Shown: in pieces, positions 1-63,490 of the stretch
How positions within the stretch are numbered: the stretch's first letter is position 1
How the letters are laid out: every line of letters begins with the position of its first letter
Source: Acanthornis magna
Taxonomy: Eukaryota > Chordata > Aves > Passeriformes > Acanthizidae
Length of the DNA: 64,000 nt
Assembly: GCA_036785705.1 (NCBI GenBank)
Contig: JAWUZG010000014.1
Span: 434,001-498,000 of the forward strand
Reading direction: 5' to 3'
Position numbers and translations under genes: made by a program
The notes under the pieces: model-generated
The model's database searches: none
What the model saw: the letters and a program-made list of their open reading frames with translations, nothing else
What the model was told of the DNA's origin: nothing

Positions 1-303
1 GCCCTGAAACTCCTCCCAGCCCCACGGCCAATCCTGGACCTCTCAAACCACCACACAGCTTCCCCTAGGATGCCTCAAATTCAGTCTGTGAGACATAAAT
101 GGCCCCAAGAGACACCGAAAGCCCTTTCCCATCTCCCCCAAGACCCACCCAATATCTCTCCAAGCCAAACAGCCCAGCCTGGACCCCAAAACTCCATCAC
201 AGCCCTAACCAAGCCCCGTCCCAGCACTACAAATGTCCCCAAGAACCACAAAACCTCCTCCCTATCCCCACTGAATCCCCCAAATGCCCCTCCCAGCCCC
301 CCA

Positions 304-512
304 TGACACTGACCAGGAGAGGTTGGTGGACAGGAACATGCACAGCTGGGAAGAGCTCAGGCACTTGAGTAGTGATTTGGGCACTTTGGGGGGCACATCC
401 CAAATGGGGAGACCCAGGCCAGCGACTGGGACAGACAACCGGAATTCCTGGAGAACAGATGGGCTCAGGTGGACACATTTTGCCAGCACAACTATGAGAT
501 CATGGCCCATTC
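304..512 (+). pseudogene. MHC class II beta exon 2 relic (unit 1)
   Basis: One frame reads like the second half of a class II beta-1 domain up to the segment LSSDLG. A neighbouring frame then carries the exon end, with WDRQPEFLEN-like and CxHNYE-like residues. The frame switch lies near 400-412, where the run AAATGGGGAGACC is one base short of keeping the frame. The first part of the exon and a usable 3' splice donor are not visible. In the family this exon makes the peptide-binding beta-1 domain of an antigen-presenting cell-surface heterodimer; this copy cannot. It lies tail-to-tail with the zinc-finger gene at 973-2,047, about 460 bases away. Confidence 0.75.
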
Positions 513-972
513 TGCCTGGCCTGTGCATCCCCAGAACACCCAAATCCCTCCATATATTACCCTGAACCCCAAATTCACCACTAAATCCCAGAAAAAAGGT
601 GCAGCTTTAGATCTCTTTGTTAAATTTCTTGATTTTTACCCCAATTTTGGTTGTTTTGAAAGGATGAAGAAGGAAATTATTTAGCTTGGAGAAGAACTCC
701 AAGATCATCCAGCATCGCTTGATGCCACCAGAAGAAATAATTGGACACAGCAGGTGAGATTTTTTAGGGTGTAACGTTAATAAATCAGCTCTACCAAATA
801 AATTTCTGATGTCAATCTGAGGACGTGGAAGCCACCAGCCAGGTGTCCTCCCAATGTTTGTCACAGGGAGTGTGGGTCACGAGGGCTCTGACCAATGTGG
901 GTCGTCCGAGGGGTGGCAAAGTTGGAGCAGCGCACAAAGCTCTTCCCACACTCAGCACTCGCAGGGCTTCCC
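513..972. other. Spacer between IIB relic and zinc-finger gene, with extra finger remnant
   Basis: No gene is seen. Bases 895-970, read on the minus strand, continue past the zinc-finger stop codon with a decayed finger (CGKSFVRCSNF, then no paired histidines). The rest is AT-rich sequence shared with 16,200-16,700 and 45,260-45,760. Confidence 0.55.
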
Positions 973-2047
973 TTACCGGTGGCTCCACTGGTGTTGGGTC
1001 AAGTGAGAGCTACTGGAGAAGCTCTTCCCACACTCGAGACACTCACAGGGCCTCTCCCCGGTGTGGATGCGCCGGTGCCTGATGAGGTGGGAGTTGTGCT
1101 TGAAGCCCTTCCTGCAGTTGAGGCAGCGGAAGGGCCTCTCCTCTGTGTGAATCCACTGGTGCATGAAGAGTTTTGAGCTGGTTGGAAACCTCTTCCCACA
1201 CTCAGAACACTCATAGGGCCTCTCCCCTGTGTGGATCCTCTGGTGGACCATCAGGCCGGAGCTCTGGCTGAAGCTCTTCCCACATTCCCCACACTCGTAA
1301 GGTGTCTCGCCAGTGTGGATGCGCTGGTGCCTGATGAGGGTGGAGTTGTGTTTGAAGCCCTTCCTGCACTCAGGGCAGCGGAAGGGCCTCTCCTCCATGT
1401 GAATCCGCTCATGCATGAGGAGGTTGGAGGTGGTCTGAAACCTCTTCCCACACACAGAACACTTGTAGGGCCTCTCCCCAGTATGGATCCTCTGGTGGCG
1501 GATCAGGTGGGATCTCTTGCGGAAGCCCTTCCCACATTCCCCACACTCGTAGGGCTTCTCCCCATCATGGAGCTGCTCAGGGACCACCAGGGCCAAGCTC
1601 TGGCTGAAGCTCCGGACGCCTTCCCGGCACAGGGTGGGTCTCTCCTCCTCAGAGCACCCTGGGCTGGGTTGGCAGCCCCTCCTTGTGCGGCATCTCTGGG
1701 GCTTTTCCTCCCTGTTGAATTCCTGTGTCATGGAGCCTCTCAAAACGGCCTCTTCCACCAGGTTCTGCCCCAAGGCTTTGTCCTCCCTGGTCTCCGTCTG
1801 CAGCTCATTGCCTGGGGAGGAAGGACAAGGAGAGGATGGGATTTGCCTCTGTGCCACAGGGAAGGGGAAGGACATTCCCCCAATCTGTCCCTGCAGGACA
1901 GCGTTGGCAGCGGGGTTGTCCTGCAGCCAGGGGCAATGCTCAGCTGGGACATGGAGCAGAAGACAGGGGGAAAGGGGCACTGACTTCCTCCTCACCTGCC
2001 TGCGTGTCCTGGGGCATCTTCCTCTTCCTCACGGCCTCCTTCTCCAT
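973..2047 (-). CDS. C2H2 zinc-finger protein, 7 fingers (unit 1)
   Basis: Two coding exons are inferred: 2047-1996 (ATG, 17 codons plus one base, starting [13 protein letters not shown]) and 1811-973, joined over a 184-base GT-AG intron that keeps frame (total 296 residues). A charged leader of about 75 residues ([16 protein letters not shown]...) carries no KRAB, SCAN or BTB domain. A degenerate finger ([13 protein letters not shown]) precedes seven complete C2H2 fingers. Linkers alternate between TGERPY and MEERPF/TEERPF. Such proteins are nuclear, sequence-specific DNA binders; targets are unknown. The TAA stop overlaps a GTAAGG donor-like sequence, and a decayed extra finger lies beyond it. 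The start is the ATG shared by units 2 and 4. An upstream non-coding exon is likely, because an AG acceptor (AAACCAG) lies 26 bases before the ATG. Confidence 0.85.
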
Positions 2048-3520
2048 CTGGCAAGGTTGGGGAATGGGAAGTCCTGGTTTGGGTAAAAAAGAGGTGTGAG
2101 TGCCTTGGGTTTGGGGTTCCTCATGCCCAGCTCCAGCTCTAGAAGTCACTGGGTGTTCTGTTTCTATAAAATCCTCCAAAAATCAAGAGTGACTCCAAAA
2201 AAAGCCTCCCAGGAGTTCCCCTTTCCCAGTCTCCTGTCTCTGGGGTGCTGGGGTTCCCCCTTCTCAAAGCTGCTGGGGCTCCCGTGGGTCCTGGGGATCC
2301 CCCTTCTCCAGGCTCCTGCTCAGGGATGCCATGCAGTTTCGGTGGTCCCAAGGGTCCCTTCTTCCCTGATGCTGCTTTGGCTCCCAGGGCTCCCAGGGTC
2401 CCCCTCTTCAGGCTCCCCCCACTCCAGGCACTCGGGGCTTCCCCCTCTCTCCGCCGCCCCTTTCAGCGTCACAGTGTCCCGGCCCTGCCTCATCTCCAGG
2501 CCCCCCCACCCCTCCAGGCTGCCGGGGGTCCCCCAGCTCCGCTATTGCCCCTCTCTGCTCTCTCCACTCCGGGAGGCCTGCGTTCCACTCCCCGGCTCTC
2601 CTGGGGATCCCCAAAACCAATGTCCTGTCCCACTAATACCAGGCAATTCCCACATGGACCCCCCCCCAATATTCCCTAAAGATTTAGAGTCCTGCAAGAT
2701 CCAAATTTTCCCTCCGATAAACAAAATATTTACCAGGGACATGCAATGATATCTGGGGCTCAATTCCAGAATCGGTGAGTTCCAAACACTCCTCCAGAAA
2801 AAAACAACCCTACTGAAGACACCCAGATAGATTAGGGGTGAGTTCCCCCACCCTGGTCACCTGTGGAATGCGGGGTGGGCAAAGATTCCAGAGCTGGGGG
2901 TGCTGCAGACACTGTAGTTGGTAAAACCTCATGGTTCCCCTGCTCCTCCTTTTCCTCCTCTTCCTCCTCTCTCCCTTCTCATCCTCCTGCTCCTCCTCTG
3001 CTCTCACCCCAGACCCTCCCTTCCCACCCTCCTCTGCCCCACGGCTGCTGCAGCAGAGGCTGCTGGGATTGGGGAACCCCCCAGTCAGCCCCAGGGATGG
3101 ACAGGGGGCTTGGGGACCCCCCAGTGCAGATCCACCTCCCCCAGAGCCCCAGGGAATTGCTCCGGGGATCAAGTGCTGGGGGACAGGGCTGGACCCCCAA
3201 GGAACCGCCCTTCTTCCGTCCCAACCCCACCTTTCCCTCCTCTCTCCTCCCCTTTCCCATCCTTCTCCCAATCCACACACCCCTCCCAACTCAATTTCCG
3301 TGTCCCATCCCCCTCCCACTCTCTTTGGGGGTCCCAGACCCCTCTTCTTCCCTACTGTTCTGCCCTTTCACCATCGTCCACTCAATCCCCAAGCCTCCTC
3401 TCCCATGATTGGTTTTGGGGCTTCCAGGCCCCTCCTGACCACTTTGGGGGTCCCAATCCCCATTTCGCTCAATTTGCGGTCCCAGCCCCCGCCCCCCTTC
3501 TCACCGCGCCCCCCGCTCAC
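2048..3520 (-). other. Conserved spacer between IIB exon 1 and zinc-finger gene (unit 1)
   Basis: No protein gene is supported. The stretch is shared with 13,704-15,200, 33,606-34,984, 42,641-44,097 and 61,143-62,657. It holds a purine/pyrimidine-rich tract (2,940-3,005), a short AG...GT-bounded segment just before it, and a block at 2,170-2,640 that stays recognisable in every unit. Long plus-strand reading frames here are low-complexity proline/serine translations. Confidence 0.5.
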
Positions 3521-3591
3521 CCCGCGGCCGGGGGCACTCCCAGCACCACCAGTGCCACCAGCACGGCCCCAGCTGCCCCCACACGGCCCAT
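3521..3591 (-). CDS. MHC class II beta exon 1 (signal peptide exon), orphan copy, unit 1
   Basis: ATG at 3591 opens 23 codons plus two bases (MGRVGAAGAVLV..., ending PPAAG) and stops at a GTGAGC splice donor. The hydrophobic core and small residues at the end fit a cleavable ER signal peptide, as encoded by exon 1 of class II beta genes. No beta-1, beta-2 or transmembrane exon follows on this strand; the next coding sequence downstream is the zinc-finger gene. The exon lies in a CpG-rich segment (3,485-3,900). The reading frame is intact, but without the other exons this is a gene fragment. Confidence 0.75.
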
Positions 3592-4489
3592 GCCCAGCGC
3601 CGGGCAGGTGCCCACAGCCCCAAAGCAGCCGCGCTCTGCCCTGGGGGGGTCCCCAAAGCGGCCCCGCCCCGCGCGGCACTGCGAGCACCAGGCCGGAGCA
3701 GTGCGGAGCGCGGGCGGGCGGCATCAGCCGTGCCCGGGCAGGGCCGGGCCCCGCGGGACAGCTCCCCCCGCACTCGGCCCCAACGGGACAGCGCCCAGCG
3801 GGGGGGCCCGGCCTGCCCGCCCCACACCTCCCCCTCCCCAAATTCCGCTCCCGGCGCCGCTGGGGCCCAGGGGAGCGCAGCTGGGCTCCAGAGCTGCCGG
3901 AGACACGTGTCCCCCGCTGCCAGTGCCACCCCCAAAGGATTAGGGGGTACCCCAAAACTCCCCCAGAGGTGGCCGATACCCCGCAAGCCCCTCACGAGTG
4001 GGGTCCCCCCGCCTTCATCACCCCCAACCTTCGGCTGCCTCATCCCAGGCCCCAGCCCACACATCCCCCTCCCCCACACTTCAGCCCACACCTCAATCCA
4101 CATCCCACCCTGCCCGGGCCCCAGCCCACCCCATCCCACTTCTCCCGCCAGCCGCCACTGAGACCCCCCCCAAAAACCCGCGTGCCGGGGACTCCCCAAT
4201 ATCCCCCCAGGGCCATTTGCGACTCACGTTAGGAGTCCTGCAAGATCCAAATATCCGCCCCCTCCCCCCCCCCGCAAAAAAATCAAACAAAGCCTCCCAG
4301 GATCAACCAAAGATATCTGGGGCTCGGTTCTGGAGTCCTACAAGGTCCAAAAATCCCTCCCTCCCAAAAAGAACCCCACGCACCGCACAAGATCTTTGGG
4401 GCGAGCTGCCCCTGCCCGGTCACCTGCGGGATGCGGGGGGCGATGCTCCCGGGGCCGAGGGCTGCGGACACACAGAGCGATGGACTCAC

Positions 4490-4640
4490 GTGGCAGCTCC
4501 TTTTGCTGCTTCTCTTTCTGCTCCACCCCCTTGATCCCTCCTCTTCCTCCCGCTTCCCTCCTCCATCTCTCCTCCCCACTTGGGCTTCCTCTTCCTCTGT
4601 CCTTTCTCCTCCTCTCCTGCTCCTCCTCCTCCTGTTCCTT
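4490..4640 (-). repeat. GA/CT-rich low-complexity tract
   Basis: Pyrimidine-rich on the plus strand, with long runs of CTCCT and TCCTC. Equivalent tracts lie at 12,590-12,720, 26,200-26,340 and 41,690-41,830, each next to a short AG/GT-bounded segment. Reading frames through it are glutamate/arginine or serine/leucine repeats, not proteins. Confidence 0.7.
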
Positions 4641-4859
4641 GGCATTCCCATCCCGGCTGTGTCTGACATCACCCCTGGGGCCGTCCTTTGCTGTGGAAAG
4701 CAGCAGGGCTGCAGGGGCAGCCGGGAATTTTGTTTTCTTAGTCTCTGGGCTGAAAGGAAGCGCTTTGAAATCCGCCATGGACAAGAAAGGAGAAATGGCA
4801 AGTGGTGGAAATGGACACCACTGTGGACTCCGTTTATCCCTCTGGATTGCAAAAGCTGA

Positions 4860-5666
<807 letters not shown>

Positions 5667-5699
5667 GGGAAGCCCTGCGAGTGCCCCAACTGGGAAGAG

Positions 5700-8104
5700 C
5701 TCCGTCCTTTGCTCCAACTTCATCACCCATCGGAGGAGCCACGTTGGGAAGACACCTGGCTGGTGGTCCTTTTATTTTGGCATGAGTTTTTTTTGATTCA
5801 TCTTCATGCCTTCAAAACACACAAAACTGGGATAAAAATTAACAAATTGATCAAAGACATCTAAAGCCTCCCTCTTTACTAGTGTTTGGGGGGAATCTGG
5901 GATTCAGATAAATATTTGGGAGTATTTGGGGGCTTTGGGGGTATTTGGTGTAGTTTTCTCCATTGCTTTGCACTCCTAAATACAAGAGGGATCAATCTGT
6001 TACTTCAAAACCACTCAGTGCCACTGAAACCTACTCAATGCCAGCCCAAAATTCCTGGATTCCACAGCCCCTGAGGGTGGAATGGGGTTGAAAGGGAATA
6101 TGGTGAAGTGGGATGCAGATCAGGAGGGGTGAGATGGGCATGGGGTGGGGCAGGATGGTTGGGATGGTACTATGAATGAATTCACAAGCTGAAATTTTAG
6201 CAACATCATATTGAACATTTATTTATAGAGCAAAGGCAAAAACAGCTGGACATTTAGCAGTTTTGCCAGAGGCACAATCCATTCATTTTACTGTGAACTT
6301 AAGTACTTTCTTTAATTGTTACATATTCATTAAGCCTAGAAGGAAATTTACACTTCACCCAACTCCCCCCCTCCGATCCTTGCCCCCTTCTGCTAGCACG
6401 GCGCCTGTCTTGGAGTCTCGGACCCTCTGGATTGCCTCAGAACTGAAGGCAGAAATCCTCCCATGGATGTTTCCTGAGTTCCAACTTAATTTGTAGGTGG
6501 CAGTTCCTTTGGGAGGTGTGAGTCAAGGTAACAGACTTCCTGGGATGCCTGTGGTTATCTTCTTTGTTTCTTTAACATGTCTTGATCCCTGGCTCTGTGG
6601 TTTATCAACTTAAAAGACATTTATTACCATGTATTTATTACTACATTTTCTAACATATTACAACTATTTTGAAGTTACAATTCACCCCAACCTTGTTTCT
6701 ACTTAATTATATTTTATCTTAACACTATTTTTTACACAGTACATTATCATTTGTGAATTTTAAATTCATATATGCGCAAGCCAGCGTTTATCATTCACTC
6801 ATTTATCACAAGGGGGTTTGGGAGGGGTGGAATGGGGGAAATAGGGTTTGGGAAGGGGTCCTTGAAGTCCAAGAGGGGTGGGATGGGTTGGGGTGTGGAC
6901 TGGGAGAGTGGGCCAGGGTCTGGAATAAGACAGCTGAAGGCGGGCGATGATGGAGGGAGGGGGAACTTGTTCCTGAGTGAGTTTTTGGGTATTCCACATT
7001 CCTGAAGGGGTTTTGGGGCAGCCCACATTTTGGAGGTGGTTTTGGGGTACTCCCCAGTTCTTGGGGGTTCATGAGAGCAGCTCCATGGAGCTCCATTGCT
7101 GGGGTGGTTGCCCTGGGCACGAGCTCTGAGCTGTACCCAGAGTCTGTTGCCTTGGTGCTGGAGAGCAGAGAAATGATGGATGGCCCCAAACGTCTGGAGT
7201 GTGTGTTTGGGGGGACAGGGCAAGTTCTGCGTAGGTGGGGCAGTCACTGCCCCACCCTCAGCCACTGCAGCCTCTGGTCCAGCCCCAAAGTGGCTGCCAA
7301 GCCCCTGGCACCCCAAAAACCCCACCTGTGAGAGGGACCAGAGCAGGTAAAGGCTGTGACACAGGTGTGACACTGACACGTCCCACGGCCCTGGAGCTCA
7401 CAGCAGCTGAGATGGCGCTGGATCCAAGACTGGGACTGTGGCTCCTTCCATGTTGCTTTAAATTTTGCCAAGTACCTCATCCTCTAATTTCAAATCTAAA
7501 GTTTTGAAAGGAGCTATACAAAGAATTTGGTATTTTGCTGAATTTTGTAGTTCTGTTTAAACTCTGTAACTTCATAGCTATAAGTTTAATTTTTTTTGCT
7601 CAGTTGCCTTCCTGTTAGTCTGTAACAGGAAACTGCTTGAGGGCAAAGAGAACCAGGGACTGGGAAGATCAGTGAAAACTGCACACCTGTGGTCCAGTTA
7701 CAAGGACCTGCACTCCCCGGAACACTAAATCAAGGAAATAAGAGGAAGTTAGGACAGTGCCTAACTAAAGAGGAATGCCAGGGCCTCACAGCAATAAGAT
7801 AAGAGAGCCTTAAGTCAGCACGTGTGACCTGGGCACGCGTCAAGAGCCACAACATGGAACTGACCCCCAAAAGGGGCTGTGGCTCTGGACAATGGACAGT
7901 GCATGTGGATGAGGTACGGAGTGGGCAGGACTTTGGGGGGGAATTCAGGAAGTCTCGTAGTGTAAAGGATCCAGAAACGTGTGAGAAAACTGCCGAGATG
8001 GTTGTGTGCAAGGCGGGTCCCCCTGGGATAAAGGAATGCTTTCTTAATAGTGTCACACTGTTCAGTCGATCTGTGTGAATCAGAACGATATTTTATAGAC
8101 CAGC
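5700..8104. other. Left-arm stretch without a recognised gene
   Basis: Bases 5,890-6,770 are AT-rich with nothing recognised. Bases 6,810-7,055 (plus) are a diverged copy of the G-rich sequence that lies upstream of IIB exon 1 in the cassettes (compare 13,060-13,285). Bases 7,060-8,100 hold open frames that recur in the other arm but match no family I know. The paired copy is 22,811-25,000. Confidence 0.5.
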
Positions 8105-9171
8105 TGTGTTGGTTTTGCTTAGCCCAGTCTTACTAATGAATGGGTGGGTGGGCACAAAGATGGCTCCTGTGTGTTCTGTGTGAATATTCTGAAAGTTTTT
8201 ACCATGTCCAGCTTAGCTGATCTCTGGTGGTTCTGAAGATGATGGACATGCTGCTGGCCATGTCTGGGCCAATTAGAGATGTTAGTTATGCCTCTGTGGA
8301 AACATATTTAAGAAGAAATCAAAACAATGTGAACACGTGCTTCTTTTTAGCCAGAGAAGGAGGAGGAGGTGAGAATATGTGAGAGAAAACAACATGGAGA
8401 CACCAAGGTCAGTGGAGAAGGTGGGGGAGGAGGTGCTCCAGGCGCCAGAGCTGAAAACCCTCTGCCAGCCATGGTGAAGACCATGGTGAAGCAGATTGTT
8501 GTCCCCCTGCAGCCCATAGAGTCCACGAGGGGCACAGAGATCCACCCACAGCCCATGGGGAGTTGCCCACACCAGAGCAGGTGGATGCCTGGAGGAAAGT
8601 GTGATCCAGTGGGAGTCCCAGAAGAAAGAAAGGCCTTGCTCCTGGGGTGGAACAGCCTGGCCTCAGAGGTCTGCAGCCTGTGGATGAGGGACTCATGTTG
8701 CAGCAGATTCGGGCAGGCTGCTGCTCCTGAGATTTGGACGCACACCAAAGAAGTTCACAGAGGAATGTCTCCCGTGGAGGGACCCCATGGAAACATAGAG
8801 GACTCCTCTCCCTGAGCAGCCGAAGAAAACCTCTGTCATGGACTGACCAAGCCCCCATACCCTGTCCCCCTGTGCTGCTGGTGGGCAGGAGGGAAAGGGA
8901 GTGAGTGGAAAAACAGTGCCTTAAGGAGTTACTTTTACTTCTCATTTGCCACCTCTGACTCTGTTAAGTTAGTAATAAATCACTTTGCAACTTTTAAGTT
9001 TCAATGTACTTTTCCCTCAGTACATCCTCCCCCAGTTACTTAACTCATAAGCCCTTTGTGTCTGTGTGCTAACTTTTATTTGTCTCTCCCCTGCACAGCT
9101 GTGGCAGGAGAGAGCAGAGAGCGCAGAGGTCATAGGTGCCTGGCATTTGGCTAGGGTCAAACCACGGCACA
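8105..9171 (+). mobile_element. Solo LTR of an ERVL-like bird family (left arm)
   Basis: About 1.07 kb, starting TGTGTTGGTTTTGC and ending CCACGGCACA, so the ends form the TG...CA inverted termini of an LTR. It has a TATA-like ATATTTAAG near 8,303 and an AATAAA signal at 8,974-8,979. The middle carries short diverged repeats around 'GGTGGATGCCTGGAGGA' and 'CCCGTGGAGGGACCCCA', a pattern I associate with abundant avian LTRs; the family name is not certain. No internal retroviral genes adjoin it. No target-site duplication is obvious. Confidence 0.6.
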
Positions 9172-10430
9172 GAGTCAGGCATCCTGAGCCCATGGCATTG
9201 GTGCCATCGTGAGAGAGAGACTCTGATGGGACACGAGCCCTGGGCTGCAGCTGCTGTCCCTCTCCTCCATGCAGGCACCTTCAAGACGACTCGTGCACGA
9301 GCTTTGAAATGAAATCCTGGACTTGCTTGGAACAAAGGAAGAAGCAGCAGGTGTTGAAGCAAAGCAGGCAGTTGTGGCGCAGGTTCAGGGCTGGAGGGAA
9401 GCACTTTGGTGTCTGCTGAGAAGATGGCCTGGTTCACAGGCACAGGCTTTGCTGCTAGAGGATCCTGCTTTGCTCTTGCTGGAGGTGATTCCCTAGCAGC
9501 AGTGCATGGCCCTGCATTTTTCCTGCATCAAGTCTTGTGGACCTGTGGCAACAAGTCTGTCCTGTGTCCCTGTGACAGCAGAAAAGGGCGGGACACTTCT
9601 GCTTCCAGCACTTCCCTGGGCTGCTCCTTCAGGATGCTGGCACCATCATCAGAGACACAGAACAGCTTCTCCTCCCAGAGTTATCCCTCCCCCCTGCACT
9701 TCCCCAGGTGATTCCCTCAATGTTCACTGGGGAACCTCCCTGTTTGTGGCTCATTGCTGTGCTCAGCAGGCACCCAGTTGTGTTTGGACAGGAGCTGCCA
9801 CAGCCACACACACAGCAACTGGAGCACTGAATACCAGAGGCTGGGCAGATTCTTTTTATTCCTAAGTGCAAGAAAGACAGTCAGGAAGGCCCAAGGAAAC
9901 TTGACAGTGTCTCTGTGGAATCTCTCTGTCCTGTGAAACTCAGCAGCTGATGGTGTTCTTGTGCTCCTGCTAATCTCTTCCATGAAAAAGAATCATTCCA
10001 GGAAGGTGCAACATCATCTGGCAGATCCCAAGCATTGCCACCAGTTGCTGCAGGTGCTCCTGCCAACAGCCACCTGCAGGAAGGAGCACAGACACCAATG
10101 CACCAATGTTGGCTTTGGCTGCCCTGTGGCAGAGAAGCACCCCCGGGGGCACAGGTCTCTGGGCCAAGAGATGGCACCGGCACTGCCAGGGCTCGGGGGT
10201 GGCAGGTCTGCTTCGGCAGGGACTGTGCCACACCTGCTGATTTCAGTGCTCCCCGGGCCCCAGGGGTCAGAGCAGCATTGGTGCCCTGGCCCACACGTTC
10301 CCTGTCTGTGTCACACCTGTCATGTTCCACTCATAAGCGGATGTGTGATGGTTCATTTCAGCTATTATCTTGGTGTGCAAAAAAAAAAAGAATGTAAAGG
10401 AAAAAATAATTCAACAAGTCACGGGAGTTA
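9172..10430. other. Left-arm stretch of unknown origin
   Basis: Several open frames of 80-156 residues on both strands recur in the right arm (20,490-21,740). None has a motif I recognise, and the paired frames keep similar peptides only because the DNA itself is conserved. Confidence 0.4.
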
Positions 10431-11575
10431 AATTTAAATCTAAACAGGAACTTTATTAATTTTGCCCATAAAGTGGCTTGCGATAGAAAGAGAGGGAATA
10501 AAGGAAAAGATAGGGAGGAAAGGGAGGAAAAGGGGGTTTATAGCTACCACCATGGGCGCACAGATGTCCAGCATCTCTGGAGGGTCCTGGTCCAGAAGGT
10601 GTTCCTCTGCCTCTGTCTTCGATCAATGTGATTTTGTGGGAATTGCAGATACGAGTCCCGAACCAAGTGCTACATCGTTAGTAATTTTTCAGCTATTTCG
10701 TCCTCCTTTTTTGGAGCTGCCTCCTACGATTTTGACAAAAGCAGCAGTCTGCATATCTCTATCTCACTGCTTTCTTCTACCACTTTTTAAGGCATCCTGC
10801 ACCACCCTCCAGGCATTCGTCAAAGACTTGGCAGATCCACAGTCTCGGGAAGCAGAGTTAAAGATAAGTTGTTCCGCTCGCTCCCAGATCGTCGCAGCAA
10901 AGGCATTTCTAGAGGCAATCTCTAAGCTCAGGCTCCTGTGCCACAGCAGCAGGGCCCTCAACAAGGCCCTCCATGCAAACAGCACAGTCTTTTCCTGGTT
11001 TAGACTAATGATACCCATTTTTCTTGGCTGTTCCCCAGCGGCTCACCTGTCTTCCAGGTTTCCAAATGTCCGGTCTGGACCTGAGCGATATCCTTCGCTC
11101 TTATGCTTCGCTGGGGCTCCGTCTCCAGCCGCGCACACTGCTCTCGGCAATTTGCTTCTCTGCCGTATCTCAGCGATTCGCCGATCGCTACCCGAAGCTG
11201 TTGCTGTATCACATCGGAGTCAGCAGCTGTCACTGTCGAGACGGTCATGACAAGTAAAAAGTTCACCACAACAGCTTCTTAGTCAGAGAAAAGGAACAAG
11301 TAAGTCTTTATTTTCCAAAGCCTTTTTATATTATTTCTAACATTCATGTCACACATCCATTGGCTCTCAGTTCATCACCCACAATGTCATTGGCTACCTA
11401 CAGTTAGAACAACATCTTGCAATAACACCACCTGCGAGTCTCTTATTATCATTGTTTATGGATTCCTGCTTGTTTTGAGCTAGAGAGGAATAGTGCGAAC
11501 TGGACAAACAGGCCTCTCCCATGGGAAAGAAGTTCTTACGAGATGCCTGCAGTTCCCACAGTGTGTGACATCACA
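10431..11575 (-). mobile_element. Degenerate ERV: LTR plus gag-like piece (left arm)
   Basis: Read on the minus strand, a likely LTR starts near 11,575 (TGTGGGAACTGC), has a TATA-like ATATAAAAAGG and an AATAAA, and runs to about 11,260. Downstream, an 84-residue frame at 10,764-11,018 resembles a retroviral matrix region: Trp-rich, amphipathic, with WERAEQLIF and a terminal WRVVQDALKSG. The element ends near 10,440 with a second AATAAA. No pol or env is seen. The reversed twin is at 19,345-20,490. Confidence 0.5.
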
Positions 11576-11579
11576 GAGC

Positions 11580-11720
11580 AGGTTGTGATGTCACAGAGCA
11601 GGCTGTGAGGAAAACGGGACATAAAGCAGGTTCTGTCACCCTCAGATGTCACAAAGCAGGCTCTGTGAAGTCCCAGATTTGGCTGTGACATCACAGGGGC
11701 TGTGTGAGGTCACTGGGGAG
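11580..11720. repeat. TGATGTCA/TGACATCA-rich minisatellite (short copy)
   Basis: Tandem copies of about 20-30 bases contain TGTGATGTCACAGAGCAGG. The core is a near-palindromic CRE-like octamer. Related arrays lie at 19,200-19,345, 40,380-40,720 and 48,262-48,790, always at the outer side of the shared inverted flank. Confidence 0.65.
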
Positions 11721-12404
11721 GTCACTCTGCCCCAGCTCCCCCTCACAGCTCCCCCAGAGAAATCCAACGCTGTTCATGCACAGCAGGGTCCCCTGTCCCC
11801 CCGGGTCCCCCCCTGCCCCACGGCGCCACAGCCTCCCCCAGAGGATGTTCCACGAGATCGAGTCCCAGAGCCTGACACGGGGACGGGGGGGACGGGGCTG
11901 TGGGGGTGGGACAGGGACCCCCCGGCAATGTCCCTGTGTCCCCCAGGGTGAGAGCCTGGGCCAGGGCTCCTTCACCCTCTTACAAATGAGGGTTTGAGAG
12001 CGCTTAAAAAATCCCCAGCAAGGGATCAGCAAAAACCAGATTTAATATTAAGCAACAGCACAACAAAGTTCCTTGGCAAGAGTCACTCTGCTCCTGACTG
12101 GACAGTTCAGGCACACCAAAGAAACAAAGCAACAACAAAACCAACCAAATCCAGTCAGTCAAACTAGAAATGAACTGAGACCTGGACCTCTTTGTGTGCG
12201 TCTGTGTGTGTTTAGGTGTGTGTGACAAAAGGACAGTGAGGGCAAGGATAAAAGGAATACGGCCTAAAAGGATAACAGGCCTCAAATTTAAGAGTACTGA
12301 ACTTATATTTTAACCATAACATACCTTAAACTTAACAATTTAGCAAAATAGCAGAACTTAAGAGTATTTAATCTAACTCACTATATACATATGTGTAAAA
12401 CAAT

Positions 12405-12495: not shown

Positions 12496-12757
12496 CCTTC
12501 CCTAAGGAGCAGAGAGTGCTGACAGAGCACAGGATGCTCTGCTGAGCACGGGATGGCCCCAGGGCTGATATCAGAAAACGCCGGAGTTGGAGTTCCAAAG
12601 GAGAGGAAGAGGAGGGGCAGAGGAGCATGAAGAGGCGGGTGGGGAGGAGAGATGGAGGTGGGGAAGCGGGAGGAAGAGAAGGGATCAAGGGGGTGGAGCA
12701 GAAAGAGAAGCAGGAAAAGGAGCTGCCAGGTGCGTCCATCGCTCTGTGTGTCCGCAG

Positions 12758-12795
12758 CCCTCGGCCCCGGGAGCATCGCCCCCCGCATCCCGCAG
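12758..12795 (+). other. Short segment with canonical AG/GT borders (possible microexon)
   Basis: TGTCCGCAG precedes and GTGACC follows a 38-base segment beginning CCCTCGGCCCCGGG. A similar 41-base segment at 14,333-14,373 has the same borders (TCTGCAG before, GTGACC after). Equivalents occur in every unit, in the right arm and in unit 1. They may be a IIB tail exon or a non-coding exon; no frame is favoured. Confidence 0.35.
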
Positions 12796-13632
12796 GTGAC
12801 CGGGCAGGGGCAGCTCGCCCCAAAGATCTTGTGAGGTGCGTGGGGTTCTTTTTGGGAGGGGGGGGATTTTTGGACCTTGTAGGACTCCAGAACCGAGCCC
12901 CAAATATCTTTGGTTGGTCCTGGGAAGGTTTTGGGGTTTTGTTTTGGGCAGAGAGGTGGCATATGTTTGGATGTTGCAGGACTCCAAATGTGAGTCGCAA
13001 ATGCCCCTGGGAGGATACTGGGGAGTTCCCGGCACGCGGGTTTTTGGGGGCTCCCTGTGGCGGCTGGCGGGAGAAGTGGGATGGGGTGGGATGGGGCGGG
13101 ATGGGGCCCGGGCAGGGTGGGATGTGGGTTGGGGTGTGGGATGAAGTGTGGGGGAGGGGGATGGGTGGGATGGGGCCTGGGATGAGGCAGCCGAAGGTTG
13201 GGGGTGATGAAGGCGGGGGGACCGCACTCCTTCGGGGCTTGCGGAATATCCACCACCTGTGAGGGAGTTTTGGCGTACCCCTAATCCTTCGGGGGTGGCA
13301 CTGGCAGCGGGGGACACGTGTCTCCGGCAGCTCTGGAGCCCAGCTGCGCCCCCCTGGGCCCCAGCGCCCCCCGGGAGCAGAATTTGGGGAGGGGGAGGTG
13401 TGGGGCGGGCAGGCCGGGCTCCCCCGCTGGGCGCTGTCCCGTTGGGGCCGAGTGCGGGGGGAGCTGTCCCGCGGGGCCCGGCCCTGCCCGGGCACGGCTG
13501 ATGCCGCCCGCCCGCGCTCCGCACTGCTCCAGCCTGGTGCTCGCAGTGCCGCGCGGGGCGGGGCCGCTTTGGGGACCCCCCAGGGCAGAGCGCGGCTGCT
13601 TTGGGGCTGTGGGCACCTGCCCGGCGCTGGGC

Positions 13633-13703
13633 ATGGGCCGTGTGGGGGCAGCTGGGGCCGTCCTGGTGGCACTGGTGGTGCTGGGAGTGCCCCCGGCCGC
13701 GGG
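13633..13703 (+). CDS. MHC class II beta exon 1 (signal peptide exon), orphan copy, unit 2
   Basis: ATG plus 23 codons and two bases, ending at a GTGAGC donor. The peptide (MGRVGAAGAVLV..., PPAAG at the end) matches units 1 and 3. CpG-rich sequence precedes it from about 13,320. The next coding exon on this strand is the zinc-finger leader at 15,201. Joining to the acceptor at about 15,173 would put the zinc-finger ATG out of frame, so any fused transcript would use this exon as an upstream ORF or leader. The normal product directs class II beta chains into the ER. Confidence 0.75.
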
Positions 13704-14209
13704 GTGAGCGGGGGGTGTGGTGAGAAGGGGGGCGGGGGCTGGGACCCCAAAGTGAGCGAAATGGGGATTGGGACCCCCAAAGTGGTCAGGAGGGGCCTGG
13801 AAGCCCCAAAACCAATCATGGGAGACGGGCGTTGGGGATTGAGGGGACGTTGGGGAAAGGGAGAGAAGAGCAGGGGAAAAGGGGGGTCTGGGACCCCCAA
13901 AGAGAGCGGGAGGGGGATGGGACACGGAAATTGAGTTGGGAGGGGTGTGTGGATTGGGAGAAGGATGGGAAAGGGGAGGAGAGGGGAGGGAAAGGTGGGG
14001 TTGGGATGGAAGAGGGGTGGTTCCATAGGGGTCCAGCCCTGTCCCCCAGCACTTGATCCCCAGAGCAATTCCCTGGGGCTCTGGGGGAGGTGGATCCGCA
14101 CTGGGGGGGTCCCCAAGCCCCCTGTCCATCCCTGGGGCTGATCGGGGGTTCCCCCATTCCAGCAGCCTGTGCTTCAGCAGCTGTGGGTTGGAGAAGGGTG
14201 GGGATGGGG

Positions 14210-14295
14210 GGTCTGGGGTGAGAGCAGAGGAGGAGCAGGAGGAAGAGGAGAGAGAGAGGAGGAGGAGGAGGAGGAGGAGGAAAAGGAGGAGCAGG
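14210..14295 (+). repeat. GGA-rich microsatellite
   Basis: Runs of GGAGGA and GAGAGA units directly before the 41-base AG/GT segment. Counterparts are at 34,125-34,195, 43,165-43,220 and, reversed, 2,940-3,005 and 62,065-62,130. Copy number varies between units. Confidence 0.75.
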
Positions 14296-15200
14296 AGAAA
14301 CCATGAGGTTTCACCACTCACTGTGTCTGCAGCACCCCCGGCTCCAGGATCATTGCCCCCCCACATTCCACAGGTGACCAGGGAGGGGGAACTCACCCCA
14401 AATCTATCAGAGGGGTCTTCCTGAGGGTTGTTTTCTGGAGGAGTGTTTGGAACTCACAGATTCTGGAATTGAGCCCCAGATATCACTGCATGTCCCTGGC
14501 GAGGATTTTCTTTATCGGAGGGAAAATTTGGATCTTGCAGGACTCCAAAACTGATCCATAAATGCATTTTGGGGAATATTGGGTGGGGTGCATGTGTGAA
14601 TTTCTCTGTATTGGTAGGACAGGACATTGGTTTTGGGTATCCCCAGGAGAGCTGTGGGGGTGGAACGCAGGACTCCCGGAGTTGAGAGAGCAGAGAGGGG
14701 TGATAGCAGAGCTGGGGGACCCCCGGCAGCCTGGAGGGGTGGGGGAGCCTGTAGATGAGGCAGGGCCGGGACACTGTGACGCTGAAAGGGGCGGCGGAGA
14801 GAGGGGGAAGCCCTGAGTGCCTGGAGTGGGGGGAGCCTGAAGAGGGGGACCCTGGGAGCCCTGGAAGCAAAGCAGCATCAGGGAATAAGGGACTCCTGGG
14901 ACCACCGAAACCCCACGGCATCCCTAAGCAGGAGCCCGGAGAAGGGAGATCTCCAGGACCCACGGGAGCCCCAGCAGCTTTGAGAAGGGGGAACCCCAGC
15001 ACCCCAAAGACAGGGGCCTGGAAAGGGGGAACTCCTGGGAGGCTTTTTTTGGAGTCACTCTTGATTTTTGGAGGGTTTTGTAGACAAAAAACACTCGGTG
15101 ACTTCTAGAGATAGACTTGGGCAGGAGGAACCCCCAGCCCAAGGCACTCAGACCTTTTTTTCCCCCAAACCAGGATTTCCCATTCCCAAAGCTTGGCCAG

Positions 15201-16192
15201 ATGGAGAAGGAGGCTGTGAAGAAGAGGAAGATGCCCCAGGACCCGCAGGCAGGTGAGGAGGAAGTCAGTGCCCCTTTCCCCCTCTCTTCTGTTCCATGTC
15301 CCAGCTAAGCATTACCCCCGGCTACAGGACAACCCCGCTGCCAATGCTGTCCTGCAGGGACAGATTGGGGCATGTCCTTCCGCTTCCCTGTGGCATGGAG
15401 GCAAATCCCAAAGCTTCTCCTTGTCCTTCCTCCCCAGACAAGGAGCTGCAGACAGAGTCCAGGGAGGGCAAAGCCTTGGGGCAGAACCTGGTGGAAGAGG
15501 CCGTTTTGAGCAGCTCCATGACACAGGAGTTCAAGAGGGAGGAAAAGCCCCAGAGATGCCACACAAGGAGGGGCTGCAAACCCAGCCCAGGGCACTGTGA
15601 GGAGGAAAGACCCACCCTGTGCCCGGAGGGCATCTGGAGCTTCAGCCAGAGCTCAGCCCTGGTGGTCCATGAGCAGCTCCATGGTGGGGAGAAGCCCTAC
15701 AAGTGTGGGGAATGTGGAAAGAGCTTCAGCAAGAGATCCCTCCTGATGATCCACCAGAGGATCCACACTGGGGAGAGGCCCTACAAGTGTACCAAATGTG
15801 GGAAAAGGTTTCGGACCAGCTCCGAGTGCCTCGTGCATCAGCGAATTCACACAGAGGAGAGGCCCTTCCGCTGCCCTGAGTGCAGGAAGGGCTTCAAACG
15901 CAACTCCACCCTCATCATCCACCGGCGCATCCACACTGGGGAGAGGCCCTATGAGTGTTCCGTGTGTGGGAAGAGGTTTCAGACCAGCTCAGATCTTCTC
16001 AAGCATCTGCAGATTCACACAGAGGAGAGGCCCTTCTGCTGCCCTGACTGCAGGAAGGGCTTCAAGCACAACTCCAACCTCATCACTCACCGGCGCATCC
16101 ACACAGGGGAGAGGCCTTATGAGTGTCCCGAGTGTGGGAAGAACTTCTCCAGGAGCTCTCACTTGACCCGACACCAGCAGAGGCACTGGTAA
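15201..16192 (+). CDS. C2H2 zinc-finger protein, 6 fingers (unit 2)
   Basis: Exons 15,201-15,252 ([13 protein letters not shown]..., 17 codons plus one base) and 15,438-16,192 join in frame over a 185-base GT-AG intron, giving 268 residues. The leader [16 protein letters not shown]... has no known domain, and a degenerate finger ([13 protein letters not shown]) precedes six complete C2H2 fingers. One finger has cysteine in place of the conserved helix leucine (SSECLVH), which may weaken it. The last finger ends HQQRHW then TAA. A decayed finger follows the stop, to about 16,290. The protein is expected to be nuclear and DNA-binding. Start chosen as the ATG shared with units 1 and 4. This is the shortest array of the four full genes. 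Confidence 0.85.
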
Positions 16193-41214: not shown

Positions 41215-41283
<69 letters not shown>

Positions 41284-47739: not shown

Positions 47740-47770
<31 letters not shown>

Positions 47771-48280: not shown

Positions 48281-48790
48281 TCACAGCCCACTCTGGGGTG
48301 TCACACAGCCATTCTTTGATATCACAGCCTGCTCTGTGTTGTTACCCACAGCTCTGTAATGTCACATCCCTCACTGTGATGTCACAGTCAGCTTTGTGAT
48401 GTCACAACCCACTCAGTGCTGTCACAGGGCACTCTGTGACCTCACAGCCTGCTCTGTGATGTCATACACCCACACCATGATGTCACAATCTGGTTTGTGA
48501 TGTCACAGCCAACTGTGACATCACAGCCAGCTCTAAGATGTGACACAACCAACCAGTCGTGCCACAGCCTACTCAGTGATGTCACAGCCTGCTCTGTGAT
48601 GGCACAACCCACTCAATGATATCACACAGCTCACTCTGTGACCTCGGAGCCTGCTCTGTGATGTCACACAGTCCCCTCTGTGATGCCGAAGCTGATCCAT
48701 GACCTCACACAACCAACTCAGAGATGTCATAGCCCAATCTGTGACCTCACACAACCCACTTTGTGATGTCACACTGCCCCTTTCTGACAT
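48262..48790. repeat. TGATGTCA-rich minisatellite (long copy)
   Basis: The largest of four such arrays. Units of roughly 22-30 bases, e.g. GCTCTGTGATGTCACAGCC, with many variants. Open frames through it are repeat translations. Confidence 0.8.
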
Positions 48791-49148
48791 CACAGCTGCT
48801 CTGGGGCTCTGTGACACAGCCCCAGAGGTGCCTATGGCTATGACACAGCCCCTCTGGGCCATGGCACAGCCCCTGCCAATGCTGAGCACATGTGAGCTCT
48901 GGCTGTGCCCTGCTGGTGTCCCTGAGCTGCCCTGGCAGTGGCCCAGCCCTGCTGGGCTGTGCACAGGAGCTGCTCCTGGGCAGAGCTGTCTCTCTGCAGC
49001 GCTGCCGCTTGCCAGGAGCTGCCTCTGTGCCAGGAGCTCGGCCCAGCTCAGCAGCACAGCCACAGCACAAGGTGCTGGTTCTGCTGTGCCTCCCAAGGGA
49101 GCTGTGCAGGGCCAGGTGACAAGGTCCCGCAGCTGTGTTGGTTCTGCA

Positions 49149-59286: not shown

Positions 59287-59756
59287 TATTTACCTTCTTG
59301 CTTATTTTGCTCAGCTAAGTTAAGGCTGCATTGTGCATGTCTCAGTGCCTAGACTATTAAGAATCCCTCAAAAGAACCCAAACATGGAGCCCCCAAACCC
59401 TGGCAGCATCTTGGGGGCAGGGTCTGGTGGCAGCTTTGGGGGTCTGGGGGGTCACTACTGCCCTGAAACCCCTTCCCAGCCCCAGAGCCAATGCCGGACC
59501 TCTCAAACCACCCAACAGCTTCCCATAGGATCCCCCAAAAAAGTCCGTGACACATAAATTGCCCCAAGAGACACCGAAAGCCCTTTACCATATCCCCCAA
59601 GACCCACCCAATACCTCTCCAAGCCACACACCCGAGCTTGGACCCCAAACCTCCCTCACAGACCCCACCAAGACCTCTCTCAGCACCACAGATGCCCCCA
59701 AGAACCACAAAAGGCCCTCCCAATCCCCACAGGACCCCCAAATGCCCCTCCCAGCC

Positions 59757-59965
59757 CCCCATGGCATTGACCAGGAGAGGCTGGTGGACAGGAATATTCA
59801 CAGCCAGGAGCAGCTCGGGCACTTCAGCAGCGATTTGGGCACTTTGAGGGGCATACCCCAAATGGGGACACCCAGGCCAGGGACTGGGACAGACAACCGG
59901 AATTCCTAGAGAACAGATGGGCTCAGGTGGACACGTTCTGCTGCCACAACTATGAGATCATGGCA
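59757..59965 (+). pseudogene. MHC class II beta exon 2 relic (unit 5), fused to zinc-finger 3' end
   Basis: Plus strand reads DQERLVDRNIHSQEQLGHFSSDLG, breaks frame at AAATGGGGACACC, then the exon end (CCHNYEI). Its end overlaps the stop codon and last codons of the zinc-finger gene on the minus strand. Not functional as MHC. Confidence 0.8.
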
Positions 59966-61142
59966 CTGTCCTTTGGCCTGGGCACTCCCATTTGAGACAC
60001 TCGTAAGACCTCTCCCCTCTGTGGATCCTCTGGTGGCGGATCAGGTTGGAGCTCTGGCTGAAGCTCTTCCCACATTCCCCACACTCATAGGGCCGTTCTC
60101 CAGTGTGGACCCTCTGGTGGGAGATCAGGCTGGAGATGCAGCTGAAGCTCATCCCACATTGCCCACACTCGTAGGGCCTCTCCCCGGTGTGGATGCGCCG
60201 GTGGATGATGAGGTGGGAGTTGTGCTTGAAGCCCTTCCTGCACACAGGGCAGCGGAAGGGCCTCTCCTCTGTGTGAATCTGCTGGTGCATGAGGAGGTTG
60301 GATCTGGTCTGAAACCTCTTCCCACACTCGGGACACTCGTAGGGCCTCTCCCCAGAGTGGATCATCTGGTGGCGGATCAGGAGGGATCTCGTGCTGAAGC
60401 CCTTCCCACATGCCCCACACTTGTAGGGCCTCTCCCCAGTATGGATGTGCCGGTGCCTGATGAGGGTGGAGTTTTGCTTGAAGCCCTTCCTGCACTCAGG
60501 GCAGCGGAAGGGCCTCTCCTCCGTGTGAATCCGCTGATGCATGAGGAGGTTGGATCTGGTCTGAAACCTCTTCCCACACTCGGGACACTCGTAGGGCCTC
60601 TCCCCTGTGTGGATCCTCTGGTGGACCATCAGGCGGGATCTCTTGCTGAAGCCCTTTCCACATTCCCCACACTCGTAGGGCTTCTCCCCATCATGGAGCT
60701 GCTCAGGGACCACCAGGTCCGAGCTCTGGCTGAAGCTCTGGACGCCTTCCCGGCACAGGGTGGGTCTTTCCTCCTCAGAGCGCCCTGGCCTGGGTTTGCA
60801 GCCCCTCCTTGTGCGGCATCTCTGCGGCTTTTCCTCCCTCTTCAACTCCTGTGTCATGGAGCCGCTCAAAACGGCCTCTTCCACCAGGTTCTGCCCCAAG
60901 GGCTTGCCCTCCCTGGTCTCCGTCTGCAGCTCATTGCCTGGGGAGGAAGGACAAGGAGAGGATGGGATTTGCCTCCATGCCACACGGAAGGGGAAGGACA
61001 TCCCCCAATCTGTCCCTGCAGGACAGCATTGGCAGCGGGGCTGTCCTGCAGCCGGGGATGATGCTGGGCTGGGAGATGGAGCGGAAGAGAGGGGGAAAGG
61101 GGCAGTGACTTCCTCCTCACCTGCCTGCAGGTCCTCGTCCAT
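59958..61142 (-). CDS. C2H2 zinc-finger protein, 8 fingers plus chimeric C terminus (unit 5)
   Basis: Exon 2 is 60,937-59,958; exon 1 ends at 61,121 with a GT donor (183-base intron, frame kept). The ATG used by the paralogs is CCG here (61,172-61,170), so the first in-frame ATG is 61,142 (MDEDLQAG), giving 333 residues; an upstream exon could also supply a start. Leader and degenerate finger match the family. Eight complete fingers follow, including two very similar [10 protein letters not shown] fingers. A ninth begins (YECLKW) and then runs into antisense IIB exon 2 sequence (ECPGQRTVP) to the stop. The terminal finger, stop and 3' region of the paralogs are deleted. Eight fingers could still bind DNA. 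Confidence 0.75.
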
Positions 61143-62657
61143 CTTCCTCTTCCTCACAGCCTCCTTCTCCGGCTGCCCAAGGTTTGGGAAAAGGGAAATC
61201 CTGGTTTGGGGGGAAAAAAAGGTGTGAGTGCCTTGGGTTGGGGGTTCCTCATGCCCAGGCTCAGCTCAGGCAGTGACTGGGTGTTCTGTTTCTATAAAAT
61301 CCTCCAAATATGAAGAGTGACCCCAAAAAAAGCCTCCCAGCAGTTCCCCCTTTCCATTCTCCTGTCTTTGGGGTGCTGGGGCTCCCCCTTCTCAAAGCTG
61401 CTGGGGCTCCCGAGGGTTCTGGGGATCCCCCTTCTCCGGGCTCCAGCTTAGGGATGCCGTGGGGTTTTGGTGGTCCTGGGGGTCCCTTCTTCCCTGATGA
61501 TGCTTTGGCTCCCAGGGTCCCCCTCTTCAGGCTCCCCCCACTCCAGGCACTCGGGGCTTCCCCCTCTCTCCGCCGCCCCTTTCAGCATCACAGTGTCCCG
61601 GCCCTGCCTCATCTCCAGGCTCCCCCACCTCTCCAGGCTGCCGGGGGTCCCCCAGCTCCGCTATCGCCCCTCTCTGCTCTCTCCACTCTGGGAGACCTGC
61701 GTTTTACCTCCCGGCTCTCCGGGGGATCGCCTAAACCGATGTCCTCTCTCACCAATACCAGGCAATTCCCACATGGACCCCTCCAGTATTCCCCCAAGGT
61801 CCATTTAAGGCTCTCCTTTGGAATCTTGCAAGATCCAAACATCCCCTCTGGCCCAGAAAATCCTCACCAGGGACATGCAAAGATATCTGGGATTCAATTC
61901 CAGAAACTGCGAGTTCCAAATACCCCTCCAAAAAAACAACCCTCCGGAAGACGCCCTGATAGATATGGGGAAAGCTCACCCTCCCTGGTCACCTGTGGAA
62001 TGTGCGGTGGGCAATGATCCCAGAGCCAGGGGTGCTGCAGACACAGTGGATGGTGAAACCTCATGGTTCTCCTGCTCCTCCTTTTCCTGCTCCTCCTCCT
62101 CCTCTCTCCCTCCTCTTCCTCCCAATCTGCCTCCGCTCTTCCACAAGGCACTCCTTCCCCACCCTCCTCTGCCCCACAGCTGCTGCAGCACAGGCTGCTG
62201 GGATTGGGGAAGCCCCTGATTAGCCCCAGAGATGGACAGGGGGCTTGGGAACCCTCCAGTGCAGATCCACCTTCCCCAGAGTCCCAGGGTATTGCTCTGG
62301 GGATCAAGTGCTGGGGGACAGGGTTGAACCCCCATTCAACTGCCCTTCTCCTTTCCCAACCCCACATTTCCCTCCCCTCTCCTCCCCTTTTCCATCCTTC
62401 TCCCAATCCACAGACCACTACCAACTCAATTTCGGTCTCCCATCCCCAACCCGCTCTCTTTGGGGGTCCCAGACCCCTCTTTTCCACTGCTCTTCTCTCC
62501 CTTTCACCACCGTCCCCTCAATCCCCAGCCCCCCTCTCCCATGATTGCTTTTGGGGCTTCCAGGTCCCTTCCTGCCCACTTTGGGGGTCCCAATCCCCAT
62601 TTCGCTCACTTTGGGGTCCCAGCTCCCACCCCCCTTCTCACCGCACCCCCTGCTCAC
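61143..62657 (-). other. Conserved spacer between IIB exon 1 and zinc-finger gene (unit 5)
   Basis: Non-coding as far as can be seen. Contains the acceptor for a 5' zinc-finger exon at 61,201-61,202, the conserved block 61,280-61,740, a 41-base AG/GT segment near 62,000-62,045 and a pyrimidine-rich tract. Near-exact reverse of 33,606-34,984. Confidence 0.5.
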
Positions 62658-62728
62658 CCCGCGGCCGGGGGCACTGCCAGCACCACCAGTGCCACCAGGA
62701 CGGCCCCAGCTGCCCCCACACGGCCCAT
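62658..62728 (-). CDS. MHC class II beta exon 1 (signal peptide exon), orphan copy, unit 5
   Basis: 71 bases with GTGAGC donor; the peptide has VLAVPPAAG at the end where the others have VLGVPPAAG. CpG-rich flank from 62,729 to about 63,060. This is the only unit where joining this exon to the zinc-finger acceptor (61,200) keeps the zinc-finger frame (71 + 28 bases). Confidence 0.75.
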
Positions 62729-63490
62729 GCCCAGCGCCGGGCAGGTGCCCACAGCCCCAAAGCAGCCGCGCTCTGCCCTGGGGGGGTCCCCAAAGCGGCC
62801 CCGCCCCGCGCGGCACTGCGAGCACCAGGCTGGAGCAGTGCGGAGCGCGGGCGGGCGGCATCAGCCGTGCCCGGGCAGGGCCGGGCCCCGCGGGACAGCT
62901 CCCCCCGCACTCGGCCCCAACGGGACAGTGCCCAGCGGGGGGGCCCGGCCTGCCCGCCCCACACCTCCCCCTCCCCAAATTCCGCTCCCAGCGCCGCTGG
63001 GGCCGAGGGGGGCGCAGCTGGGCTCCAGAGCTGCCGGAGACACGTGTCCCCCGCTGCCAGTGCCACCTCCCGAAGGATTAGGGCTACCCCAAAACTCCCT
63101 CTCAGGTGGCCGATACCCCGCAAGCCCTGAAGGAGTGGGGTCCCCCCGCCTTCATCACCCCCAACCTTCGGCTGCCTCATCCCAGGCCCCAGCCCACACA
63201 TCCCCCTCCCCCACACTTCATCCCACACCCCAATCCACATCCCACCCTGCCCGGGACCCAGCCCACCCCATCCCACTTCTCCCGCCAGCCGCCACTGGGA
63301 CCCCCCAAAAACCCGCGTGCCGGGGACTCCCCAATATCCCCCCAGGGGCATTTGCAACTCACATTTGGAGTCCTGCAAGATCCAAAAGTCCGCCCCCTCC
63401 CTCCCTAAAAAAAATTCAAACAAACAAGCCCTCCTAGGATCAACCAAAGATATTTGGGGCTCGGTTCTGGAGCCCTACAAGGTCCAAAAA

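Follow-up and report, generated by a model that had tools for sequence, protein, structure and literature searches.

A repeat unit of the Acanthornis magna genome combines rearranged MHC class IIB pieces with a C2H2 zinc-finger gene

We analyzed a window of 64,000 nucleotides from the passerine Acanthornis magna (contig JAWUZG010000014.1, here C14; C14:434001-498000) that contains copies of a repeat unit, the cassette, joining pieces of a major histocompatibility complex (MHC) class II B (IIB) gene to a C2H2 zinc-finger (ZNF) gene. Mapping of the repeat by self-BLAST and multiple alignment of the window revealed one order of parts common to A, B, D, and E, in which IIB exon 1 is followed on the same strand by a C2H2 gene with an open frame and then by an antisense, frameshifted IIB exon 2. 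Farther on, B, D, and E have sense-strand relics of IIB exons 4 and 5; A is truncated there by the edge of the window. With a probability of about 0.7, we interpret the cassette as a hybrid IIB-ZNF locus that was duplicated as one unit until it numbered about a hundred copies or more, in which the ZNF gene appears to have been kept alive and the IIB 5' end would act as a promoter and conversion hotspot. A first-pass annotation of the window had counted five copies of the cassette; self-alignment recovered exon 1, the ZNF gene, and the reversed exon 2 in four of them, and many more copies lie elsewhere in the genome. The third copy (C), to which all three parts had been assigned, ends at 34,989 before the ZNF gene and retains exon 1 only. 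The features of the units are as follows.

1-4692, minus strand: cassette A, truncated at its 3' end by the edge of the window (self-BLAST, alignment)
3520-3591, minus: IIB exon 1 leader of A, with GT donor (tblastn, profile)
973-1811, minus: C2H2 finger exon of A, 7 fingers, open
308-507, plus: IIB exon 2 relic of A, inverted, frameshifted (tblastn, profile, frame alignment)
12545-17720, plus: cassette B (self-BLAST, alignment)
12690-12890, plus: copy 1 of the ZNF 5' exon-like stretch in B, CpG rich, 68% alike to the downstream copy
13333-13704, plus: CpG-island block of B with the IIB 5' untranslated region (5'UTR) and exon 1, the lowest divergence of the cassette
13633-13704, plus: IIB exon 1 leader of B (tblastn, profile)
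14290-14560, plus: ZNF 5' exon-like stretch of B (copy 2), CpG poor
15201-15252, plus: first coding exon of the B ZNF gene, donor in phase with the finger exon
15438-16192, plus: C2H2 finger exon of B, 6 fingers, open
16700-16902, minus: IIB exon 2 relic of B, inverted, frameshifted (tblastn, profile, genome search)
17233-17440, plus (sense): IIB exon 4 (transmembrane, TM), intron 4 donor, and exon 5 start of B
26140-26946, plus: partial unit F, the 5' part alone, stopping at a repeat like a long terminal repeat (LTR) ahead of exon 1
32771-34989, plus: truncated cassette C, which has exon 1 and the mid region but neither ZNF gene nor exon 2
33535-33606, plus: IIB exon 1 leader of C (tblastn, profile)
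41638-47460, plus: cassette D (self-BLAST, alignment)
42570-42641, plus: IIB exon 1 leader of D, the most diverged of the five (tblastn, profile)
44334-45256, plus: C2H2 finger exon of D, 8 fingers, open
45763-45962, minus: IIB exon 2 relic of D, inverted, with frameshift and stop (tblastn, profile)
46280-46500, plus (sense): IIB exon 4/5 relic of D (46428-46486 matches the exon 5 region of the C734 gene, E = 3e-11)
59365-63491, minus: cassette E, with a deletion between ZNF gene and exon 2 (self-BLAST, alignment)
62657-62728, minus: IIB exon 1 leader of E (tblastn, profile)
59958-60937, minus: C2H2 finger exon of E, 8 fingers, with a ninth that the deletion has broken
59763-59965, plus: IIB exon 2 relic of E, inverted, frameshifted (tblastn, profile, genome search)
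59374-59436, minus (sense relative to the cassette): IIB exon 4 relic of E, weak on its own

The arrangement was read against near-intact IIB genes located on contigs C2 and C734 of the same genome. In the C734 gene (L031), a DNA match placed the exon 1 region at 6335-6446, and protein matches, free of stops, placed exons 2, 3, and 4 at 6942-7211, 8265-8546, and 9150-9257. Cassette copies aligned to this locus in sense at 6303-6679 (5'UTR, exon 1, and early intron 1), inverted at 6988-7193 (exon 2), and again in sense at 9143-9386 (exon 4, intron 4, and the start of exon 5); between these blocks there was nothing but short matches in one or two cassette copies. The two ends of a IIB gene, in normal orientation, thus enclose the ZNF gene and the reversed exon 2, which replace the middle of the gene. 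Exons 1 and 2 are thus indeed in an abnormal relative order, as had been proposed, and the best reading of the alignment is that a cassette represents one IIB gene body. The near-intact genes on C2 form a tandem array, with IIB exon 2 matches in places every 30 to 31 kb (G000:C2 176743-509304). Elsewhere on C2, loci L029 and L030 (G000:C2:132001-152000) contain a IIB gene with sense exons 2, 3, and 4, in which no leader was found, and a ZNF N terminus and fingers immediately 5' of an intron 1 remnant, possibly an intermediate or a ZNF-IIB fusion. Locus L033 (G000:C2:228001-238000) is arranged head to head, with a minus-strand cassette-like exon 1 block and ZNF gene beside a plus-strand IIB exon 1.

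Each IIB piece was identified separately. Exon 1 is an open 24-codon leader with a GT donor in units A to E by tblastn, with profile E values of 9.7e-11 to 2.1e-8 in the five units (best value in one shuffled window, 5.8), and Corvus IIB protein models matched the leader and 5'UTR with 85% identity over 40 codons, corvids being the closest in this region of all proteins compared. The leader frame was open in 23 of 24 copies (broken in L024). Since the changes among copies were mostly amino acid replacements, the leader does not look preserved as a protein. The antisense exon 2 relic was found in A, B, D, and E with best profile E values of 2.2e-7 to 3.3e-13 (19 in a shuffled window), covering profile positions 20 to 87 of 94 split over two frames. 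Single frames of B, D, and E scored 20.7, 20.0, and 16.3 bits against Pfam MHC_II_beta, each under the cutoff of 20.9, which B (32.1 bits) and E (30.0 bits) passed in the genome search; with exon 2 inverted and frameshifted, the cassette has no open sense exon for the beta-1 domain. The frame of exon 2 was assessed in 25 copies (5 in the window and 20 fetched from across the genome, as described below), 6 of which were not assessable. In all 19 readable copies, the two halves were out of frame with the same direction of shift, and in A, B, D, and E, where the exact site was aligned, the frame broke at one common place. This common frameshift supports the earlier claim that the rearrangement predates the spread of the unit.

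Beyond the exon 2 relic, B carries a sense TM exon, the intron 4 donor, and the start of exon 5, and sense relics of the TM exon are also present in D and E. All seven IIB models with 3' read-through had their best match at B 17233-17391 (E = 4e-5 to 0.009, against 0.013 for the best of 20 shuffled decoys). Exon 3 (beta-2 immunoglobulin domain) gave no match at an E value of 0.01 when 78 passerine IIB proteins of 248 to 252 residues, taken from 120 listed, were run piecewise against the window, and exon 3 of L031 had no DNA match among cassette copies. A candidate for exon 3 in A (589-759) was rejected (profile E = 0.27, versus a best value of 1.6 in a shuffled window).

Copies were sought across the assembly (1.48 Gb in 1515 contigs). 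Of 1,129 candidates from a genome search for the MHC-beta domain, 150 were scored; 149 of these matched MHC-beta, and 106 of the 149 started at profile position 28 to 37, the form of the relics. This relic count is a lower bound, as two of the four relics of the window (B and E) were in the scored list. Six of the 106 (on C212, C256, C312, C446, C497, and C528) perhaps belong to a different relic family; MHC-beta matches on these contigs and others covered profile positions 8 to 74 in 158-amino-acid frames with identical scores, a second repeated family separate from the relic of the cassette. A DNA search with cassette B, in which 31 of 2,924 flagged places were scored, yielded 51 matching pieces in those 31 places. 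We fetched 20 relic loci on 14 contigs, chosen as exon 2 matches, so that exon 2 was present by construction. The ZNF N terminus, the fingers, and the inverted exon 2 were in cassette order in all 20, the exon 1 block was found in 19 (not in L022), and exon 4/5 was found in 15 (not in L018, L022, L023, L024, or L028). Distances between copies were correlated in all 21 pairs of parts formed from intron 1, two mid regions, copy 2 of the ZNF 5' exon-like stretch, the ZNF N terminus, exon 2, and exon 4/5 (r = 0.27 to 0.68; P = 0.005 or less). After removal of eight near-twins, r was -0.03 to 0.44, with P > 0.05 in 6 of the 21 pairs; as the correlations were weaker without near-twins, the copies have probably also recombined with one another. 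The cassette order, the exon 1 block in 19 of 20 loci, and the correlated distances agree with the first-pass proposal that MHC and ZNF DNA were amplified as one unit.

The ZNF gene is the part of the unit that appears to survive as a gene. Finger exons were open in all four complete units of the window, in which 29 fingers fit the pattern, and 23 of the 24 ZNF copies from the window and the fetched loci had an open frame (193 to 417 residues). In a neutral simulation, the probability that all four window exons lacked a stop ranged from 0.03 at 3% change to 0.001 at 6% and was at most 6e-6 when the ligands of matched fingers were also to be kept. Entropy in fingers 1 to 3 (23 open reading frames, 173 fingers) was highest at helix positions 3 and 6 (1.87 and 1.83 bits; next, 1.13), so that two DNA-contact positions are the most variable. 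The gene has two coding exons with matching phases: the finger-exon acceptor was at one position in 23 of 23 copies, and the donor of the first coding exon was in phase in all 7 shown; in E, the usual ATG of this exon is altered. It belongs to the passerine METREDK C2H2 family, with which it has the N-terminal region and the exon pair in common; all 54 listed relatives bear names that we take to be those of passerine birds. No KRAB or SCAN domain appeared among the best 25 families of 31 for D and of 35 for E. Outside CpG sites, a 130-bp stretch between exon 1 and the ZNF gene (B 14690-14830 and homologues) diverges little (1.7% among the window copies and 3.4% over 24 copies); it may be a ZNF exon. 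The palindrome arms contain finger fragments of this kind at 5487-5687 and 25157-25333.

The divergence of the cassette is uneven. A block of about 370 bp that includes exon 1 contains its least diverged 300-column stretch (2.2%; median over 92 such stretches, 11.2%). Over 22 to 24 copies, the CpG element and the 5'UTR/exon 1 diverged by 3.2 to 3.4% with CpG observed/expected (o/e) ratios of 0.55 to 0.61, compared with 8.4 to 14.6% and 0.13 to 0.35 in introns, mid stretches, and dead exons, making the exon 1 block about 3-fold less diverged than most of the unit. Intermediate values were found for copy 1 of the ZNF 5' exon-like stretch (5.7%), block 3 (5.8%), and the ZNF N terminus (6.7%). Inspection by eye, without a formal scan, found none of the class II promoter boxes S, X, and Y in the block.

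According to the explanation that we favor, the middle of a IIB gene (late intron 1 to intron 3) would have been replaced by a ZNF gene of two coding exons together with the gene's own exon 2, reversed, and exon 2 would have been frameshifted before multiplication of the unit began. The block would then have multiplied by segmental duplication and by recombination of one repeat with another (inverted arms and LTRs), with the ZNF gene as the part apparently kept alive, as its open frames and variable DNA-contact residues suggest. What persists of the IIB 5' end would be a CpG island that precedes the ZNF gene, and the IIB leader would be an untranslated or bystander exon. That the IIB 5' end is the promoter of the ZNF gene is, by a narrow balance, the side that we would take. 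We also take the block as a putative gene-conversion hotspot that keeps the copies alike, since it is a CpG island and the genome is that of a bird: bird recombination is concentrated at CpG islands, and birds are without PRDM9 (PMC10781513).

Several observations weigh against this explanation. In C, which is without a ZNF gene, the CpG island is preserved to about the same degree; in E, another 200-bp CpG-rich stretch (61551-61750) lies closer to the ZNF gene. Distances in the CpG element correlated significantly with one other part (14830-15100), and the small number of variable sites in the element is part of the reason for its low correlations. Constraint on the ZNF N terminus was weak (ratio of nonsynonymous to synonymous differences [pN/pS] of 0.70 in 23 copies and 0.70 to 0.87 in the window), L011 had no readable ZNF start motif, the L027 ZNF gene is short (193 amino acids), and the last finger of E is broken. 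Ligand conservation over 23 copies was dropped as evidence of selection, as the finger pattern forces invariance. Splicing of the IIB leader to the finger exon as a secreted protein was rejected as out of frame, the leader leaving 2 bases (4 of 4 copies checked) where the finger exon needs 1 (23 of 23). The IIB leader motif was found in none of 173 proteins from two ZNF searches, in which untranslated exons would not show. Finally, exon 3 was not found in the cassette, and the TM profile taken by itself gave borderline E values (0.05 and 0.18).

Some of these points lend themselves to a different account, which we rate somewhat below even odds: the CpG block is conserved purely through homogenization at a hotspot, the ZNF genes are driven from a different promoter or are largely silent, and the unit spread by neutral segmental duplication. 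As C keeps the block without a ZNF gene, conversion fits better there than selection for a ZNF promoter. Distances in the CpG element were unrelated to those in seven of eight other parts, which mostly track each other, and the replacement changes in the leader, the weak constraint on the ZNF N terminus, and the location of bird recombination hotspots at CpG islands (PMC10781513) point the same way. Against it, the ZNF-proximal 5' exon-like copy is CpG poor (o/e, 0.19 to 0.36 in the window and 0.24 in 24 copies), so that the block is the nearest CpG island 5' of the ZNF gene in A, B, and D (not in E). Moreover, the 5' part of the block is 74 to 77% alike to elements that precede ZNF sequences without a IIB leader match on C2 (L029, L030, L034, and L036); in L035, a comparable element adjoins IIB exon 1.

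A less likely alternative is that the cassette arose by deletion within an ancient tandem array in which ZNF and IIB genes alternated, its IIB pieces coming from different neighbors. A IIB model of the barn swallow (Hirundo rustica; P0226), the N terminus of which matches the 3' end of a ZNF gene of this family in another frame (E = 3e-5) with IIB exon 1 after the ZNF-matching stretch, would fit such an array, as would ZNF sequences near IIB genes on C734 and C2, some on the same strand, and the ZNF 5' exon-like stretches that flank the IIB block on both sides in A, B, and D. However, the outer IIB pieces bracket the insert in normal order and orientation, for which a single gene is the simpler account. 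More doubtful still is a reading in which a ZNF family captured the MHC class II 5' end as its promoter and then, with dead MHC exons in tow, expanded genome-wide under interferon- or CIITA-like control, its members being DNA-binding genes that diversify fast and perhaps silence mobile DNA. An assembly artifact, with haplotypes or misjoins mistaken for copies, is highly improbable: the assembly is in 1515 contigs with near-twin places (e.g., C14:512118 and C222:900706, 99% to B), but mean pairwise divergence outside the CpG block, copy 1 of the ZNF 5' exon-like stretch, and block 3 (6.7 to 14.6%) is well above our expectation for haplotypes, and the cassette order was identical in all 20 fetched loci.

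The proximity of ZNF and MHC genes is already known; the hybrid repeat unit is not described in the literature found. ZNF-like genes lie near IIB genes in bacterial artificial chromosomes of the zebra finch and a cosmid of the red-winged blackbird (Balakrishnan et al. 2010, PMC2907588). As in the present genome, these songbird class II regions combine ZNF-like genes, IIB genes or pseudogenes, and retroviral genes, with IIB duplicated; what is reported in the part of that paper considered is proximity and fragmentation, whereas a fixed high-copy unit with a ZNF gene inside a IIB gene and an inverted exon 2 is a feature of the present genome. On passerine MHC contigs with many loci, a ZNF family is among the commonest neighbors (He et al., PMC7875000), and the Hawaiian crow had 60, 17, and 62 matches to exons 2, 3, and 4, with 11 full loci, in the same study. 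This excess of exons 2 and 4 over exon 3 is what such a cassette would give and serves as a lead only; in the sections of that paper considered, the extra matches are set aside as pseudogenes and no structure is described. Chicken MHC-B also contains ZNF genes, Bzfp1 to Bzfp3, a likeness that concerns location only (PMC4988538).

In primate core duplicons, such as LCR16a/NPIP, a block with a core gene spreads in interspersed copies, and the gene evolves fast. The cassette likewise occurs in its own genome as many interspersed copies with one common block; it differs in being avian, in having a 5' end that comes from an MHC gene, and in containing dead immune exons. An old remark on ZNF genes near songbird MHC class II thus gains a concrete structure, a rearranged gene turned into a high-copy repeat. 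Counting or PCR typing of MHC-IIB based on exon 2 can catch dead relics in such birds. If the IIB 5' end does drive the ZNF gene, an immune promoter would have been captured by a rapidly evolving DNA-binding family, and the conserved, apparently decoupled CpG island offers a natural test of CpG-island recombination in birds without PRDM9.

Other repeats surround the units. Cassette B lies in the spacer between inverted arms of about 6.8 kb (5579-12378 and 18549-25337; 94.6% identical), and D likewise lies between inverted arms (40100-41446 and 47601-49072). None of six open frames tested from the palindrome arms and the 50- to 58-kb region had a Pfam match. LTR-like repeats of 500 bp, 93 to 94% alike, are present at unit junctions (26947-27448, 32269-32771, and 63491-63993). 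C and E have a common junction and F breaks off elsewhere, as if units had been swapped by recombination between retroviral copies. Minus-strand retroviral fragments (reverse transcriptase, RNase H, and avian gp85-like env pieces) lie near the LTR-like repeats.

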